From Arthrobacter sp. SLBN-100 (lineage in GTDB: Bacteria; Actinomycetota; Actinomycetes; Actinomycetales; Micrococcaceae): DNA of 64,000 bases. Within the stretch, counting starts at the first letter, position 1. Each line of letters starts with the position of its first letter. The notes under the pieces were generated by a model, which was given only the letters and a program-made list of their open reading frames with translations, did not search any database and was not told where the DNA came from. The stretch spans positions 930,001 to 994,000 of the forward strand of contig NZ_VFMY01000001.1 in NCBI RefSeq assembly GCF_006715305.1, given 5' to 3'. The position numbers were made by a program, and so were the translations under genes. Positions 1-9,057 of the stretch are shown here, piece after piece.

Positions 1-128
1 GCTTTGGGCGGCCGTGGGTCTTGGCCGAGGAGCGCGATAGCACCTTGAACGCGTTCTTTGTCCTCGGGATGAATTTTCTTAAGTGCGCGGATGGCCGCAG
101 GTCTTAGCTCAATCCGGTAGGGACTCAT
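1..128 (-). CDS. RelE-family toxin, C-terminus cut by window edge
   Basis: Only the first 42 residues are inside the window. They begin MSPYRIELRPAAIRALKKI, the usual N-terminal strand and basic helix of RelE/ParE-type toxins. Toxins of this family with Phd/YefM partners are usually ribosome-dependent mRNA nucleases. The ATG overlaps the stop of the upstream antitoxin by four bases (ATGA, 125-128), so the two are probably translationally coupled. The catalytic C-terminal residues lie outside the window, so activity cannot be judged. Confidence 0.8.
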   Translation of the reverse strand, partial: MSPYRIELRPAAIRALKKIHPEDKERVQGAIALLGQDPRPPK

Positions 129-373
129 GCCCAGCCCAGATCCGCCTTCACTTGTACCCAGGGAATGTTCTCGCCTTCTTCCGCCATTGCTGCATCGAAT
201 GCCGCAATGTCCTCGACTTCTTCCAAAGCATCAAGCATCTGCTCATATCGCTCTGGCGATACTAGAACTGCTGCCCGATGTCCGCGACGCTCAATGAATA
301 CCGGCTCCGACTCGGCCTTTTCGATGAGCTCTGGCAAGTGTGATCGCGCGTCAGTGATATTGATGGTCGACAT
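125..373 (-). CDS. Phd/YefM-family antitoxin
   Basis: 82 residues from the ATG at 373. The N-terminal half (STINITDARSHLPELIEKA) matches the DNA-binding fold of Phd/YefM antitoxins, followed by the family turn 'RRGHRAAVLVSPERYE'. The acidic C-terminal tail (LEEVEDIAAFDAAMAEEGE) is the part expected to wrap and neutralise the toxin. A longer frame reaches 487, but its extra N-terminus is not family-like and would place the two operator-like TGTACA palindromes inside the gene, so the shorter start is preferred. The gene precedes the RelE-type toxin with a 4-base overlap. Autorepression by the antitoxin-toxin complex is likely. Confidence 0.85.
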   Translation of the reverse strand: MSTINITDARSHLPELIEKAESEPVFIERRGHRAAVLVSPERYEQMLDALEEVEDIAAFDAAMAEEGENIPWVQVKADLGWA

Positions 374-380
374 GAAACAA

Positions 381-409
381 ATGTACATCCGCTGGCACCA
401 GATGTACAT
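381..409 (-). promoter_or_regulatory. Paired TGTACA palindromes, candidate antitoxin operator
   Basis: Two identical 8-bp palindromes ATGTACAT lie at 381-388 and 402-409, centred 21 bp apart (two helical turns), just upstream of the antitoxin ATG at 373. TGTACA is the core recognised by YefM in the E. coli yefM-yoeB system, so the pair is a good candidate for the autoregulatory operator. Binding itself is an inference. Confidence 0.6.
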
Positions 410-671
410 CTGCTCCACCACCATCATGCGAAACGAGCGAGTGTGAGACCTAGGGTTACTTGGCGGAAAGCGCCAGACGTGAACCACGGTGCTTCCGCGG
501 TTTTGTTCAGCTGCTTACCGGTGTCGGCCGACTAACCTAGTTGGCGAAATCAAGAGGTGATGTGGGGTCACAACCTGGCAGCTCGGAGGTACAGGACTCC
601 GTGCCGCCGCTGTCATGGAGCCTCCTGCGACTGCGAGATCCGAACCGAGTCAATCGGCTCGAACTCCCGCG
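410..671. other. Intergenic, nothing recognised
   Basis: Between the toxin-antitoxin operator and the 3' end of the DUF262-DUF1524 gene. Short open frames exist on both strands, but none has family-like composition or a convincing ribosome site. No repeat or RNA gene was recognised. Confidence 0.4.
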
Positions 672-2636
672 TCAAGGACCCGCAAAGTGGATGTCAACAT
701 CGTAGCCAGCCTCTCGTAGATCCTCGCGGAGCACGTTCACCATTGCCCGGTCGTGACGGCGAATTGCCGTCTTGTCCCATGTGGTTCCGCTCTTGACCAT
801 GTCCGACATGAGTTGAAGTTTGGTGCTCTGCTTGACGATCTCTGTCTTGTTCGCCTTGTACGGGGGCAAGTTGTTGCTGAATTTGGAGTTCGTGCTGACA
901 CTCACTAGCGCGAGGTTTCCGAACATGTGGAGCTCCTTATCATCAGGCGTCACCAGGTCCCAGCCGTTATCGTCTCGATTTGCGTACTGAGGGAAGAAGT
1001 GCTCCACGGAGTTCCGGTACACGAAAGTGAAGTTGGGGTCGGCCGGGGAGGCGGGACCGGCACCCTCCGTTGCCAAGAGGTAGTCAAGGTAGGTGAACAC
1101 GATTCGCTCAATATTGAACCCGGCTGGCTGGGACCCGACAAAGAATGCTTGCTGCACCTTCTGGCGCGCGTGTGTCCTTAAGACGGCGAGGATCGATTGA
1201 GCAGCGTCCTGCTGCGTCAGGCCGATGATCGGTTCGCGTAGGATTCTCGTGATCCACTGCATTGTCCGCGGGGAGGTGTAGGTGACTCGGAACATTGATT
1301 GGAGCAGCAGCACGTCGCGTGTCGCATCGTCAACGGGGGTGTCTTCCCTCTCCGCTCTGTCGGGCGAGAAGGCGTTCGGAAAGCGCGCATTGACCGTAGT
1401 GCGTTTGCCTCGTTGAGAGGCTGACTCTCCCCGGGTCAGGCGTTTAAGAGACCAGGCGCCGTCGTCAGCGTTGGTTGCCGTGAACTCACGCTTGAGAACG
1501 TAATTGTCGAGCACGAACTTGCATCGCAGGAGAACCTCGATGAACCCCTTGACCCGGTCCGACCGCTGAGTCTCGGAGAGAGGTTTGAAATCGCTTTCGA
1601 AAAGCTTGATCAACTTGCCGTCGTCGAGGTGGCCATCGACGTCGTCCTCGCCGTCCGTCTCCCTCAGAACTTTTAGCGCGTGAAGGAGCAGAGTTGGGAA
1701 CTTGATGGGCGACTCGAACCGGCGACTTTCGGAGTCTTCCTCGGTTGGCTCCGCAGGGGTTCTGGCGTAGAGCCGGAGCGCTTCGCCCATGCTCACGCCC
1801 GCACTCCGGCTCACGCCGCTCCGGGCGTGAACCTGCGGACTTTTGAGGACCAGGTCATCGAATGTCGAAACCGTAAGGCGGTCCCATCTCGGGCTAAATA
1901 TTTCGTCTCGCAAGTCGGTGTTGTTTGGAGTCAGCGCCATTTGGATGTACGAGTTCATCTCAGCGCAGGCGTCCCAGACCCACGCGAGGCAAGCCCTATC
2001 GTCCTCGACCTCCCCCGCCTCGTTGCGCAGGTAACTCATTAGTCGCGCCTTGATAATGTCGACCTGCTCCAGCTGCTGGCCACGGGTGTTCATGATCTCG
2101 AAGTACTTATTCAAGTCGGTCTGTACAGGGAGAATCGCTCGCACGAGCTGCACGTTATCCTCTAGGAATCTCTGAAAAGTGTCTCGTTCTTCGGGGGTCC
2201 TGAACTTCGCCATGCGCGACTTGATCACCTGAAATCCCAGCTGGATGCCGGCACCTTCGTCATCGTCCGAAGTCATGAGGCGCGTCAGCGCTTGGGTCGC
2301 GTTCCTCCGAGATTGATACGTGAGTTGCGCCTTCGGTGCGACTCCGAGGTGCGTCAATAGCATCAACAGGGTTGTCAGTCGTTGCTGACCATCAACGACC
2401 TCGAAGGTCACGCCATCCCTCCTGAGGCCGGGAGGCTTCCGGGCCACTATCAAATTACCTAAGAAGTAATCGTCAGCTTCCGCCTGTGCTGCCGCCCACA
2501 CGTCATCAATGAGTTGCTCGATCTGCTCAACGCCCCAGGCGTAGCTGCGCTGATAAATTGGAATTTCGTAGTGCGTTTTCACCTCATCAAAGAGCTCGCC
2601 GACCGTAAACAAATTCGCTGCTAATTTTTCGATCAT
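672..2636 (-). CDS. DUF262-DUF1524 protein, GmrSD-like putative type IV restriction nuclease
   Basis: 654 residues. The N-terminal DUF262 domain is shown by IPIYQRSYAW (about 25-34) and VDGQQRLTTL (about 81-90), the ParB/Srx-like nucleotide-binding motifs of GmrS. The C-terminus (about 540-650) carries the DUF1524 His-Me finger signature: SVEHFFPQ, then an FGNL segment and NSKFSN. Known relatives (GmrSD, SspE, BrxU) cleave modified phage DNA or nick DNA during defence. The ATG at 2636 shares its A with the TGA of the upstream DUF262 gene, so the pair is coupled. The invariant His and Asn positions look intact, so catalysis is plausible. The substrate is unknown. Confidence 0.85.
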   Translation of the reverse strand: MIEKLAANLFTVGELFDEVKTHYEIPIYQRSYAWGVEQIEQLIDDVWAAAQAEADDYFLGNLIVARKPPGLRRDGVTFEVVDGQQRLTTLLMLLTHLGVAPKAQLTYQSRRNATQALTRLMTSDDDEGAGIQLGFQVIKSRMAKFRTPEERDTFQRFLEDNVQLVRAILPVQTDLNKYFEIMNTRGQQLEQVDIIKARLMSYLRNEAGEVEDDRACLAWVWDACAEMNSYIQMALTPNNTDLRDEIFSPRWDRLTVSTFDDLVLKSPQVHARSGVSRSAGVSMGEALRLYARTPAEPTEEDSESRRFESPIKFPTLLLHALKVLRETDGEDDVDGHLDDGKLIKLFESDFKPLSETQRSDRVKGFIEVLLRCKFVLDNYVLKREFTATNADDGAWSLKRLTRGESASQRGKRTTVNARFPNAFSPDRAEREDTPVDDATRDVLLLQSMFRVTYTSPRTMQWITRILREPIIGLTQQDAAQSILAVLRTHARQKVQQAFFVGSQPAGFNIERIVFTYLDYLLATEGAGPASPADPNFTFVYRNSVEHFFPQYANRDDNGWDLVTPDDKELHMFGNLALVSVSTNSKFSNNLPPYKANKTEIVKQSTKLQLMSDMVKSGTTWDKTAIRRHDRAMVNVLREDLREAGYDVDIHFAGP

Positions 2637-4027
2637 CAACCGGCCAACCTATCCAAGAGGCGCATCAAATCCTGCTCATGCTTTGGGATGTCGTCTCGTC
2701 CTTTGACCTCGAGGCGTAACCGCCGAAGTTCGGTTGAGGTCTCAGCACTCCGAAGAAGAACGAAAGCCGATGCATTGTGGTCTAAAGAACTGGCGTGGTT
2801 GTTCACGGTGACTAGCTGAAGCCGCTGGTAGCTCGTCCGGAGGGTATAGGCCCACGTGAACAACCGGCTCTTTGCCTCGCGAATGTCGACGTCGCCGAAT
2901 TTGTTTGTGTAGTAGAGCAGTGCTGCCAGATAAAGCTCGGAAACGTATCGATACCTTGCTCGCGATGGGAGCTCGCGAAAGTCGTCGTCCGTGGAGGCGA
3001 AGTGGCCCCAAGACTTTTCCTTGCCCTCGTTCCCGTCCTGTTCATCGAAGCCCTCTTCGCGGAGTCTTCGTAATTCTGCCAACATGAACGCAACCATCTC
3101 GAAGAAGGACCGTCCTGCGACCACGGGTGCGTCGATTTGGAAGCGCGTTCGGTTGGTCATCCGGTTCGCTTCATCGGAGCGCTCAACCCAGGCCGCGAGC
3201 ATAGGCACGGCGGTTTGAGCAGCGAGGTGGTAGCGCGCGGCGGGCGTGCTTGCCGATTTGGGTGTCAAGCCCTTGAAGGAGTCGATGTATCGCGTTGAGA
3301 AAGTTGGTGCGGAAAGTCCACGCGTCCACCGCTTGATACGCCAAAGGTACGTTGAGAAGAGCCGGTCGAGCTCTGCATCGGGGACATTCTGCCAACCTTC
3401 GACGAGGGCTTCTCGCATAGCGTCAGACTCGTCGCTCATCTCGCGCAGATGGTATGCCTTCAGCAAATCGTGTGGCAGCAGGGGTTTGCCCCGATAGTTC
3501 TGCGAGTCGAAGACCCGGAAAGCTTCGTCGGTGTCGTCCGTCTCCACACGGATGATCTCGCAGTTGTTGCGGACGAAGTCAGCGAATGCATGAATCGGCT
3601 CCTCCATGTGTCTAACCCGACGGGCCAGCTCCGTACGGACCCGAACTACGGGCGCGGCCTGGTCCTCGTGCTCTATCGGCAGGACTTCGGTGGGGAACTC
3701 GCTCGCTTCGTCGAGTAGATCTAACAGCATGGTGAGCGTCAAGAGACGCTGCTGGCCGTCGACGACATGGGTTTGGACATCCTCGTTGTCCCGGTGGAGG
3801 ATGACGGCGCCGAGCACATACGAAGGCTCTGGAGCCTGCTCCGCATCTGGTGAGGCGTTCGGCGCAACGTTCTCTGGCCTAAATGCATTTCGGATGTCGT
3901 CGAAAAGTTGGAGCGCAGTGGCAGGCTCCCAGCTGTAGGGCCTTTGATAGGACGGGATCGTCAGTCCTTCATCTAACAGCTCACCAACGGTGACAACTCT
4001 GACGCCCTTCTCGCGATCAATAGCCAC
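2636..4027 (-). CDS. DUF262 protein without nuclease domain, partner of downstream DUF262-DUF1524 gene
   Basis: 463 residues from a GTG at 4027, which follows an AGAGGGG ribosome site at 6-base spacing; a TTG at 4054 is a weaker alternative. DUF262 motifs are clear: IPSYQRPYSW (about 24-33) and VVDGQQRLLTL (about 88-98). The C-terminal half is helical and charged, with no HNH or DUF1524 signature. It may act as a second NTP-sensing or recognition subunit for the nuclease encoded immediately downstream. Its stop overlaps the next start (TGATG), which supports equimolar expression of a two-protein system. The function is inferred from the domain and the coupling. Confidence 0.8.
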   Translation of the reverse strand: MAIDREKGVRVVTVGELLDEGLTIPSYQRPYSWEPATALQLFDDIRNAFRPENVAPNASPDAEQAPEPSYVLGAVILHRDNEDVQTHVVDGQQRLLTLTMLLDLLDEASEFPTEVLPIEHEDQAAPVVRVRTELARRVRHMEEPIHAFADFVRNNCEIIRVETDDTDEAFRVFDSQNYRGKPLLPHDLLKAYHLREMSDESDAMREALVEGWQNVPDAELDRLFSTYLWRIKRWTRGLSAPTFSTRYIDSFKGLTPKSASTPAARYHLAAQTAVPMLAAWVERSDEANRMTNRTRFQIDAPVVAGRSFFEMVAFMLAELRRLREEGFDEQDGNEGKEKSWGHFASTDDDFRELPSRARYRYVSELYLAALLYYTNKFGDVDIREAKSRLFTWAYTLRTSYQRLQLVTVNNHASSLDHNASAFVLLRSAETSTELRRLRLEVKGRDDIPKHEQDLMRLLDRLAG

Positions 4028-6603: not shown

Positions 6604-8679
6604 TCACGGTGTAGTAATACCTTCGGCTTTTTCCTGTTGCAGCACGATGGGAAGGCCAGCCAGCCTACGACGGCGACGTTCGATCCAAGTGCTCAATCGA
6701 CCCTCCAAAGGCGCCAACCACTCCCGCACCGTGCCTTTGGCAAAATGCCGTGCTGTTGCGACGCTCACAAGAAAAACGCCAAAAACGGCAGCGACAACGC
6801 CAAACCAGTTCGGCGCCTGGGTCATCCATGGAGGATTTAGAAACTTCAGAATCGCGATTGCGGCCGAGGGAACGAGAAGGAGGAGAAACAATGTGCTGAT
6901 AACCCCCCTAGCCGTAGCTTGCGCCCCCGCACGAAGCACGGCGTCACGTTCTGACGACTCCTGGTTTCGTTTTAGTAGTTCAGCCCGAGTGGCTTCCACT
7001 TGCCGTTGAGCCGCATCTCGTTGCGCGGTGGTTTTATCCAGCACGTCTGATTGGTCCAGCCACGATTTCGCCACCATGTCCGCGGACCGGGCCAGGTCCT
7101 CCTGCGATTTGCCGACTTGATCCATTCTTTGCAGCAATGGATGCTCAATGTCCTTCTTGATGCGCCCGAGGACTTCGACCGCGGAATCTGCCGACAAATA
7201 TTGCTCGTCGCCGAGTGTCTCCTCCATCAGGGCTGTGCGGCCGACTGTTGTAGCCCGAAGAATTACGGCGTCATCAGCGTTCACGACGCCGCGCGATTCC
7301 AGTTTGGCTACCTCTTCGAGGTATCTCGCCCAAAGATGGCTATCCGGCTGCATGCCAGCGTATGCGGTAGCCAGGATCTGCTTTCGTGGGAGATCCGCTC
7401 CCACCGTTGGGCTCCGAACCCACAGAACGGCGGCAAGGGCACCGTCCGTCATTGCCAGCGGCCACTCGTGATTCTCTTGGTCCAATTTCTCAACGGCACG
7501 TACGAGACCATCGTTATCGGTGATCAGGATGTAGCCACACTTTTCAAATTGTCTAGGGGAGCTGCCTCGACGAAGACGATGAATAGCCGACAGGCTGTCT
7601 ACGTCATACCTTCTCGTCCCGTCCGATCGATAACGGACGTGATTCTGAATTAGGTCCTCCAAACGCCCCTCGTCCAGCCCGTATTCCTTGTATCCATCTG
7701 GCTTAGGTCGGCGCTCGATCTGGAGTTCGACGAGGGCGGCGGGAACACGATCGCGGGCGAGAGCGATGTCAGACGGCGAAGTACGTGATTCCTGAAAATG
7801 CAGGTCAATAGGACGAAGACCTTCACGTCTGCGTCCACCGGCGCGGACTACTCCCTCTGCGCTAGCCAGTACACCGTCGAGCTCTTTCAAGGAGTGATCG
7901 AAACAATAAGTGGACGCACCGAGAGCTTGGGCGAGCTTGATCATCTGAAGGGTCGCCTGCAGCTGCGCCTCACCAGAAAATCCGAGCGCATTGATGAGCA
8001 CCGGAGTGTCCAGATAAATCGAAAGGCCCTTCAGGGACTGGGCAAACGTCGAAGTATCCAGGGTTACTACGGAAGCGAGTATCGCACCCTTGACAGCGTC
8101 CTCAACGTAGCCGAAACCCGTCTGATCGACGTCCGCCAGATGCGCAATGAACTTTGAGATGACGTATTCTGAGGCCCGGCTTCCAGCCTCCCCAGCGGCC
8201 TTACGTCCCGTAAGGGATTGAGAAAGTAGCGGTACTGCGTGGTACTCGAGGTATCTGGCAAGCTCCCCCGCCGGATCAATGTTCAAGTCCCTGCTATGTT
8301 CTGCGTACCTTTCGCTGATGAATTCCGTGTACTTTGTTACGAGCTCGTTCTGCTGGCGTTCGTAGCGGGCGATGGACGCGGTGACGCCGGGTGCAGTTTT
8401 TTGGCCTTTGTCCGTGATCCTGTACATCTTCCCAACTCGGGATGCGTCGCCATCGCGAACTGCACGCTTGAGGATCTTCTCCACAACCAGATCTGGTGTA
8501 GTCAGACCGAACCGAGACCTAAGAATCTGAGCCAGACTTGCGCAAGTTATTCCAGACTGATGCTGGCAGAGGATGTCCAAGGCAAAACTACGAAAGTTGT
8601 CGACATAGCTTGGCGCCTGTGCGTCATAATTTGCCCTCAAGACAGCAAAGCCTATGAGCGAGGACTGGCTCGCGTTCAT
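6604..8679 (-). CDS. Membrane-anchored PIN-domain protein with N-terminal winged-helix-like region
   Basis: 691 residues; the ATG at 8679 follows a GGGGGAA ribosome site (an in-frame start at 8775 has none). Residues 26-95 look like a winged helix. The PIN-like fold spans about 219-420 with acidic positions Asp224 (IYLDTPVLINAL), Glu266 (SLKELDGV), Asp361 (DVDSLSAIHRLRRG) and Asp388/Asp390 (ILITDND), the usual metal-binding set of PIN RNases. A coiled-coil-like stretch (about 540-588) leads to two membrane helices near 594-612 and 625-642 and a basic tail. PIN domains cleave RNA, so a membrane-tethered RNase effector is plausible. It is isolated, with no recognised antitoxin beside it. Confidence 0.65.
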   Translation of the reverse strand: MNASQSSLIGFAVLRANYDAQAPSYVDNFRSFALDILCQHQSGITCASLAQILRSRFGLTTPDLVVEKILKRAVRDGDASRVGKMYRITDKGQKTAPGVTASIARYERQQNELVTKYTEFISERYAEHSRDLNIDPAGELARYLEYHAVPLLSQSLTGRKAAGEAGSRASEYVISKFIAHLADVDQTGFGYVEDAVKGAILASVVTLDTSTFAQSLKGLSIYLDTPVLINALGFSGEAQLQATLQMIKLAQALGASTYCFDHSLKELDGVLASAEGVVRAGGRRREGLRPIDLHFQESRTSPSDIALARDRVPAALVELQIERRPKPDGYKEYGLDEGRLEDLIQNHVRYRSDGTRRYDVDSLSAIHRLRRGSSPRQFEKCGYILITDNDGLVRAVEKLDQENHEWPLAMTDGALAAVLWVRSPTVGADLPRKQILATAYAGMQPDSHLWARYLEEVAKLESRGVVNADDAVILRATTVGRTALMEETLGDEQYLSADSAVEVLGRIKKDIEHPLLQRMDQVGKSQEDLARSADMVAKSWLDQSDVLDKTTAQRDAAQRQVEATRAELLKRNQESSERDAVLRAGAQATARGVISTLFLLLLVPSAAIAILKFLNPPWMTQAPNWFGVVAAVFGVFLVSVATARHFAKGTVREWLAPLEGRLSTWIERRRRRLAGLPIVLQQEKAEGITTP

Positions 8680-9057
8680 ACTTCCCCCAACTAATCGAGT
8701 CTCACAATTCGGATATATGGTTCTCCCGCACACATCTCCGTGCAGGGGCACTGTAGTTGGGACAAGGGTCAACATCGCTCATATTGGTGCACTCGGCGGT
8801 TGAAGGCTTTGCGGCGCTCGAAGTCATCATCTACCCAATCGCTGGCCAGCCACCGACATCACACTCCGGTCCTGCGCCTGTACAAACAGGCGTAGTCGGC
8901 ATGTCAACGACCAAGTCGAGTGGCAGTCCGCGATCGCTTTGGGTTTCGCCAAACGGGTCTTAACGCCAATCAGCGTGCGCTTCACAGATGGCAGGTAACT
9001 TGTCCCGTGTGCCAGCTACCTATCTTGGCGACTCACGTTCTAACATCACGGCGCAAA

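Follow-up and report, generated by a model that had tools for sequence, protein, structure and literature searches.

TgvAB, reported in 2024, is a two-gene defence system in which both proteins carry a DUF262 domain and TgvB carries a DUF1524 domain as well; it acts on T-even-type phages with sugar-modified cytosine, and defence depends on both proteins, on the DGQQR motif of each and on H571 and N602 of TgvB (PMC11411939). Its genes are described in an operon of the order HsdM (VC1769), HsdS (VC1768), TgvA (VC1767), TgvB (VC1766), HsdR (VC1765) (PMC12409362), yet embedding of this kind is not required, since 79 five-gene type I restriction-modification (RM) operons were counted against 1,341 tgvAB hits (PMC11411939); the system is named in DefenseFinder's list (PMC13268207). 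GrwAB, reported in 2025 from VSP-II of WASA V. cholerae, also comprises two DUF262 proteins, one with DUF1524, and needs both proteins, both DGQQR motifs and the nuclease residues of one partner (PMC12137116). Here we analyse two adjoining DUF262 genes, gene A and gene B, in a window of 64,000 nucleotides from the 4.94 Mb genome of Arthrobacter sp. SLBN-100. The two-protein plan of this pair is already named in TgvAB and GrwAB, and sequence comparison places the pair as a divergent branch of TgvAB. The two products probably make up a modification-dependent (type IV) restriction system of that family, with an A:B complex cutting phage DNA via the nuclease of B.

Both genes lie on the minus strand. 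The TgvA-like gene A (2636..4027, 463 amino acids) runs from a GTG start at 4027 to a TGA at 2638-2636, and the TgvB-like gene B (672..2636, 654 amino acids) runs from an ATG at 2636 to a stop at 672; at the TGATG junction, the TGA of A and the ATG of B have base 2636 in common. A GAGAGGGG stretch lies upstream of the GTG. The sequence-only reading, an earlier note on this DNA made from its letters, had drawn a span of 672-4027 that is exactly gene A plus gene B, and it was right about the TGATG overlap, about DGQQR and IPxYQRxYxW in both proteins and about a DUF1524 His-Me finger in the downstream gene only. In Pfam, the nuclease-less A matches PF03235 (DUF262, GmrSD_N; 5.9e-28) and PF25202 (DUF7834; 1.9e-55), the latter a conserved family of its own that covers the C-terminal half of A, with no match to PF07510; B matches PF03235 (3.6e-32) and PF07510 (DUF1524, GmrSD_C, a His-Me/HNH nuclease; 1.3e-10). 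IPxYQRxYxW, DGQQR and FxxxN are kept in A (IPSYQRPYSW, DGQQR with R94, FDSQN) and B (IPIYQRSYAW, DGQQR with R86, FEIMN) alike. Placed from residue numbers, the DGQQR nucleotide-pocket motifs occupy 3746..3760 in A (residues 90-94) and 2379..2393 in B (residues 82-86), and the His-Me finger of B (H546 to N583) occupies 888..1001, all on the minus strand. H546, N574 and N583 are present in B and have no counterpart in A; across 72 aligned B-type proteins, which include a Vibrio-genus reference (L157) with H571 and N602 in the invariant columns, H546 and N583 are invariant and N574 is found in at least 90%. Both open reading frames (ORFs) are intact with all motifs kept, and they are not chance ORFs because identity to relatives is as high as 92% for A and 96% for B and both genes are adjacent in four other genomes of the same genus.

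The hunt for a TgvAB-like reference covered 227 Vibrio-genus genomes, from which 15 stretches were taken. In L157, HsdM, HsdS, A, B and HsdR follow the TgvAB order, B has H at 571 and N at 602, and A carries PF25202 (2.2e-43). Because this locus, TgvAB by its operon order and by H571 and N602, has DUF7834 in A too, we assign the window pair to the TgvAB family; read through L157 rather than through V. cholerae TgvA itself, TgvA-type proteins would be DUF262 plus DUF7834 proteins like window A. Window B aligns with L157 B along most of its length (24% identity, 5e-37), and window A aligns with L157 A at 29% identity over 211 columns, comprising the DUF262 part and a later patch. The window pair thus shares with TgvAB a nuclease-less gene followed by the nuclease gene, DUF262 motifs in both proteins, a His-Me nuclease confined to B and, as known for TgvAB through L157 only, DUF7834 in A; some members of the family also have type I RM genes nearby. 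The window pair differs in being 22-25% identical to L157 and in forming a separate deep branch in the tree of A; no type I RM operon was found around it, only a C-terminal HsdR fragment nearby. The sequence-only reading had entertained a new type unless the pair matched an already named defence subtype, and that novelty is lost with the assignment to TgvAB. A literature search found no experimental test of the window's branch.

GrwAB resembles the pair in having two DUF262 proteins with DUF1524 on one of them. In the description given in PMC12137116, the nuclease protein GrwA is encoded first, and GrwB has a long C-terminus with unknown domains and differs from TgvA; in the window the nuclease gene comes second and the partner carries DUF7834, the contrast with GrwB being drawn from that description only. 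On gene order and the partner's C-terminus as so described, we ruled out membership in GrwAB. As a separate observation, another tandem DUF262 pair, in GrwAB-like order, occurs in three same-genus genomes (G409, G520 and G488; stretches L162, L163 and L164), where the first protein has 575-581 amino acids with DUF262 and a weak DUF1524 match and the second has 766-804 amino acids with DUF262. Judged from the spacing of PF03235 matches, with Pfam run on L162 and L164 only, this pair is present in at least 10 of 206 same-genus genomes, and near it, at L162:9036-11651 on the minus strand, lies a gene for an 871-amino-acid protein with DUF262, DUF1524, DUF4268 and a sub-threshold alkyltransferase-like DNA-binding match.

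The remaining described relatives lack the second DUF262 protein. B has the DUF262, helical part and DUF1524 of GmrSD, Eco94GmrSD and BrxU, and its fold matches BrxU, but these systems are single proteins or separate S and D; DUF262 proteins are frequent neighbours of GmrSD homologues (PMC4619093). Confident predicted models (predicted local distance difference test scores of 90.0 for A and 87.1 for B) have SspE and DndI, then BrxU, as the best PDB structural matches of each protein; unlike the window pair, SspE and DndI each consist of one protein and are tied to genes for phosphorothioate modification. Compared with 7drs, A fits tightly in its DUF262 domain (2.3 Å over 167 residues) and loosely in the remainder, and its aligned range ends at residue 468 of DndI and 464 of BrxU; the C-terminal part of B also matches Cas9 HNH domains with low Z (2.1-2.7). 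The best PADLOC model for both proteins is HEC-06 (9.6e-34 for B and 2e-28 for A, with the best stretch inside the DUF262 part), which differs in being described as a single-protein system.

Whether the two genes stay together, a check proposed in the sequence-only reading, has a clear answer, as their partnership is strict. DUF262 proteins at large are common, occurring in 103 of the 206 same-genus genomes; DUF7834 is found in five (E ≤ 0.001) and B in the identical five (E ≤ 1e-40), adjacent every time, and no B without A was detected in these genomes at the thresholds used. A broader survey took in 100 stretches (80 loci from genome contigs, one plasmid, 14 from the genus Vibrio and five from the same genus, the window included). 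It gave 79 A-type proteins whose score exceeded both 110 bits and that of the B profile, the other 21 stretches having none; two of the 79, in L153 and L160, duplicate genomes already counted. B lies within 1 kb on the same strand for 77 of the 79, the exceptions being L030, where the contig end falls inside the next DUF262 ORF, and L077, a doubtful A whose A and B profile scores are nearly equal. With B read from its first possible start, the genes overlap in 71 of the 77 pairs, by one or four bases in 28. The trees of A and B are concordant (Mantel r 0.966, best of 999 permutations 0.159, 72 pairs), as linkage alone would also make them. With nine hsd queries in phmmer (E ≤ 1e-6), an hsd-like gene was found somewhere in the stretch for 27 of the 77 pairs, and two or more for 23, most of these pairs lying outside the window's branch; the HsdR queries may match other helicases too. 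Two copies in other genomes appear to be decaying: in L046 B is broken into two ORFs, and in L158 a shortened A is followed by a 283-base gap ahead of B.

In a type IV system of the kind we propose, A and B would associate in one complex, each DUF262 domain would bind and hydrolyse nucleotide, modified DNA would be recognised by DUF262 surfaces, and recognition would lead the single His-Me nuclease domain, on B, to cut invading phage DNA. BrxU is an intertwined homodimer that is split by ATP and whose nuclease requires prior nucleotide hydrolysis (PMC8565348), and DndI is a homodimer in the crystal (PMC11662687). Given these homodimers and the fold matches, the simplest reading would be a heterodimer with A in the place of one protomer of the one-gene relatives, A being the sensor and nucleoside triphosphatase (NTPase) protomer with a helical domain of its own (DUF7834) and B the catalytic protomer; each complex would then hold two NTPase sensors and one nuclease, and B alone would be inactive. 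It is likely that two genes exist because a homodimer turned heterodimer, and we infer the geometry of that heterodimer, the mark recognised by this branch and activity in this host. A C5-cytosine methylase of the host, if active, would put methylcytosine in host DNA, a mark that the pair should then spare, so a modification larger than methylcytosine would be favoured as the target. The sequence-only reading had suggested two-sensor restriction in which the nuclease-less partner licenses the DUF1524 nuclease, and this, apart from the novelty claimed for it, fits the requirements of TgvAB and GrwAB as published. A further step, which we raise tentatively and consider somewhat doubtful, is that the window's branch may be a functionally separate heterodimeric type IV enzyme, an obligate A:B pseudo-dimer that pairs two NTPase sensors with a single nuclease and in which A, through DUF7834, reads a mark other than that of TgvAB. 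Each branch would in that case be tuned to the phages of its hosts. Why TgvB alone gives no protection has been called unclear (PMC11411939). The strict coupling, the DUF7834 partner and the BrxU and DndI homodimers would together offer a simple answer to that puzzle, namely a heterodimer with one nuclease.

Antitoxin genes often precede and overlap their toxin partner, and A is both first in the operon and overlapping with B, as might be expected if A were a brake or antitoxin that restrains the nuclease B until infection frees it. DndI alone is harmful to cells without its mark (PMC11662687), which would suit such an arrangement. We nonetheless give this explanation little credence, as defence by TgvAB and GrwAB is abolished when either protein or either DGQQR motif is lost (PMC11411939, PMC12137116), and A retains every DUF262 motif, for which an inert brake would have no use. 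Still less probable is a phosphorothioate-gated system in which, as with SspE or DndI, sulfur marks placed on host DNA would govern cutting; A and B both match these two best in structure, but SspE and DndI are each a single protein. DndC and SspD belong to the PAPS-reductase Pfam family, and one search for that family in the host genome found two places, both by eye CysD-/CysH-like beside a CysN-like GTPase (L171), with no DndC/SspD-like enzyme seen and dndB/sspB models not searched.

We see an equally slim chance that the pair, which adjoins a broken type I RM system, is itself a remnant that has decayed or is silent. The neighbouring system, just left of the window (L169:6756-7841) on the strand opposite to the pair, is indeed broken, with a 185-amino-acid C-terminal fragment of HsdR that is 92% identical to the end of the intact HsdR of a related species (G489) and a 157-amino-acid ORF that is 66% identical to the counterpart beside hsdR there; in G489 the pair adjoins the intact hsdR. 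The window ORFs themselves, however, are intact with all their motifs, and intact close relatives exist in the four other same-genus genomes. Least probable of all are two independent single-protein systems that are neighbours by accident, as A and B co-occur over very distant bacteria, co-diverge and overlap in most pairs.

Relatives of the TgvAB-like pair occur on plasmids. Those of A were found in 969 of 72,556 plasmid records, 906 of them Klebsiella, and window B as query gave 901 records, 857 of them Klebsiella; B of another branch as query gave 1,075. Among 60 rows evenly sampled from the 901, 30 stood at 38.7-42.6% identity, 26 at 30.0-31.2% and four were shorter or weaker, which suggests, by identity alone, that roughly half of the B-carrying records belong to the window's branch and most others to another branch. 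The pair of one Klebsiella plasmid (L085), whose stretch also carries sopA and umuD, recurs at ≥95% identity in 80 of 5,426 E. coli genomes, and coverage is ≥80% for 77; 78 of the places are chromosomal and two on plasmids; one E. coli copy viewed in context has a relaxase, a type II RM system and an abortive-infection gene nearby. With relatives of the window's branch on Klebsiella plasmids and in E. coli, the question of why TgvB alone does not protect could be addressed in standard laboratory species. If the branch is indeed the functionally separate enzyme raised tentatively above, its occurrence in E. coli and on conjugative plasmids of Klebsiella would place it among the commonest plasmid-borne defences yet to be put to experiment.

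Directly downstream of the pair are genes for a Phd/YefM-type antitoxin and a ParE-type toxin (window 1-487 and L169:7868-8488), and beyond the HsdR fragment, outside the window and on the strand opposite to the pair, lies a YhcG-type nuclease. GC content per kb is 55-61% up to 14 kb into the window and 64-69% between 14 and 20 kb; so low a GC content would be consistent with acquired DNA, but the low-GC part also holds a class Ib ribonucleotide reductase gene, so composition alone marks no island. At window 6604-8775 on the minus strand, a 723-amino-acid protein without a match in Pfam, NCBIfam or PADLOC shows by eye a PIN-like LDT stretch and, at its C-terminus, a hydrophobic segment. The host also encodes a third DUF262 protein (L170, host contig 4130000-4146000) of 635 amino acids, with DUF1524 just below the cut-off, and near it lie the C5-cytosine methylase, an MvaI/BcnI-type endonuclease and Vsr.
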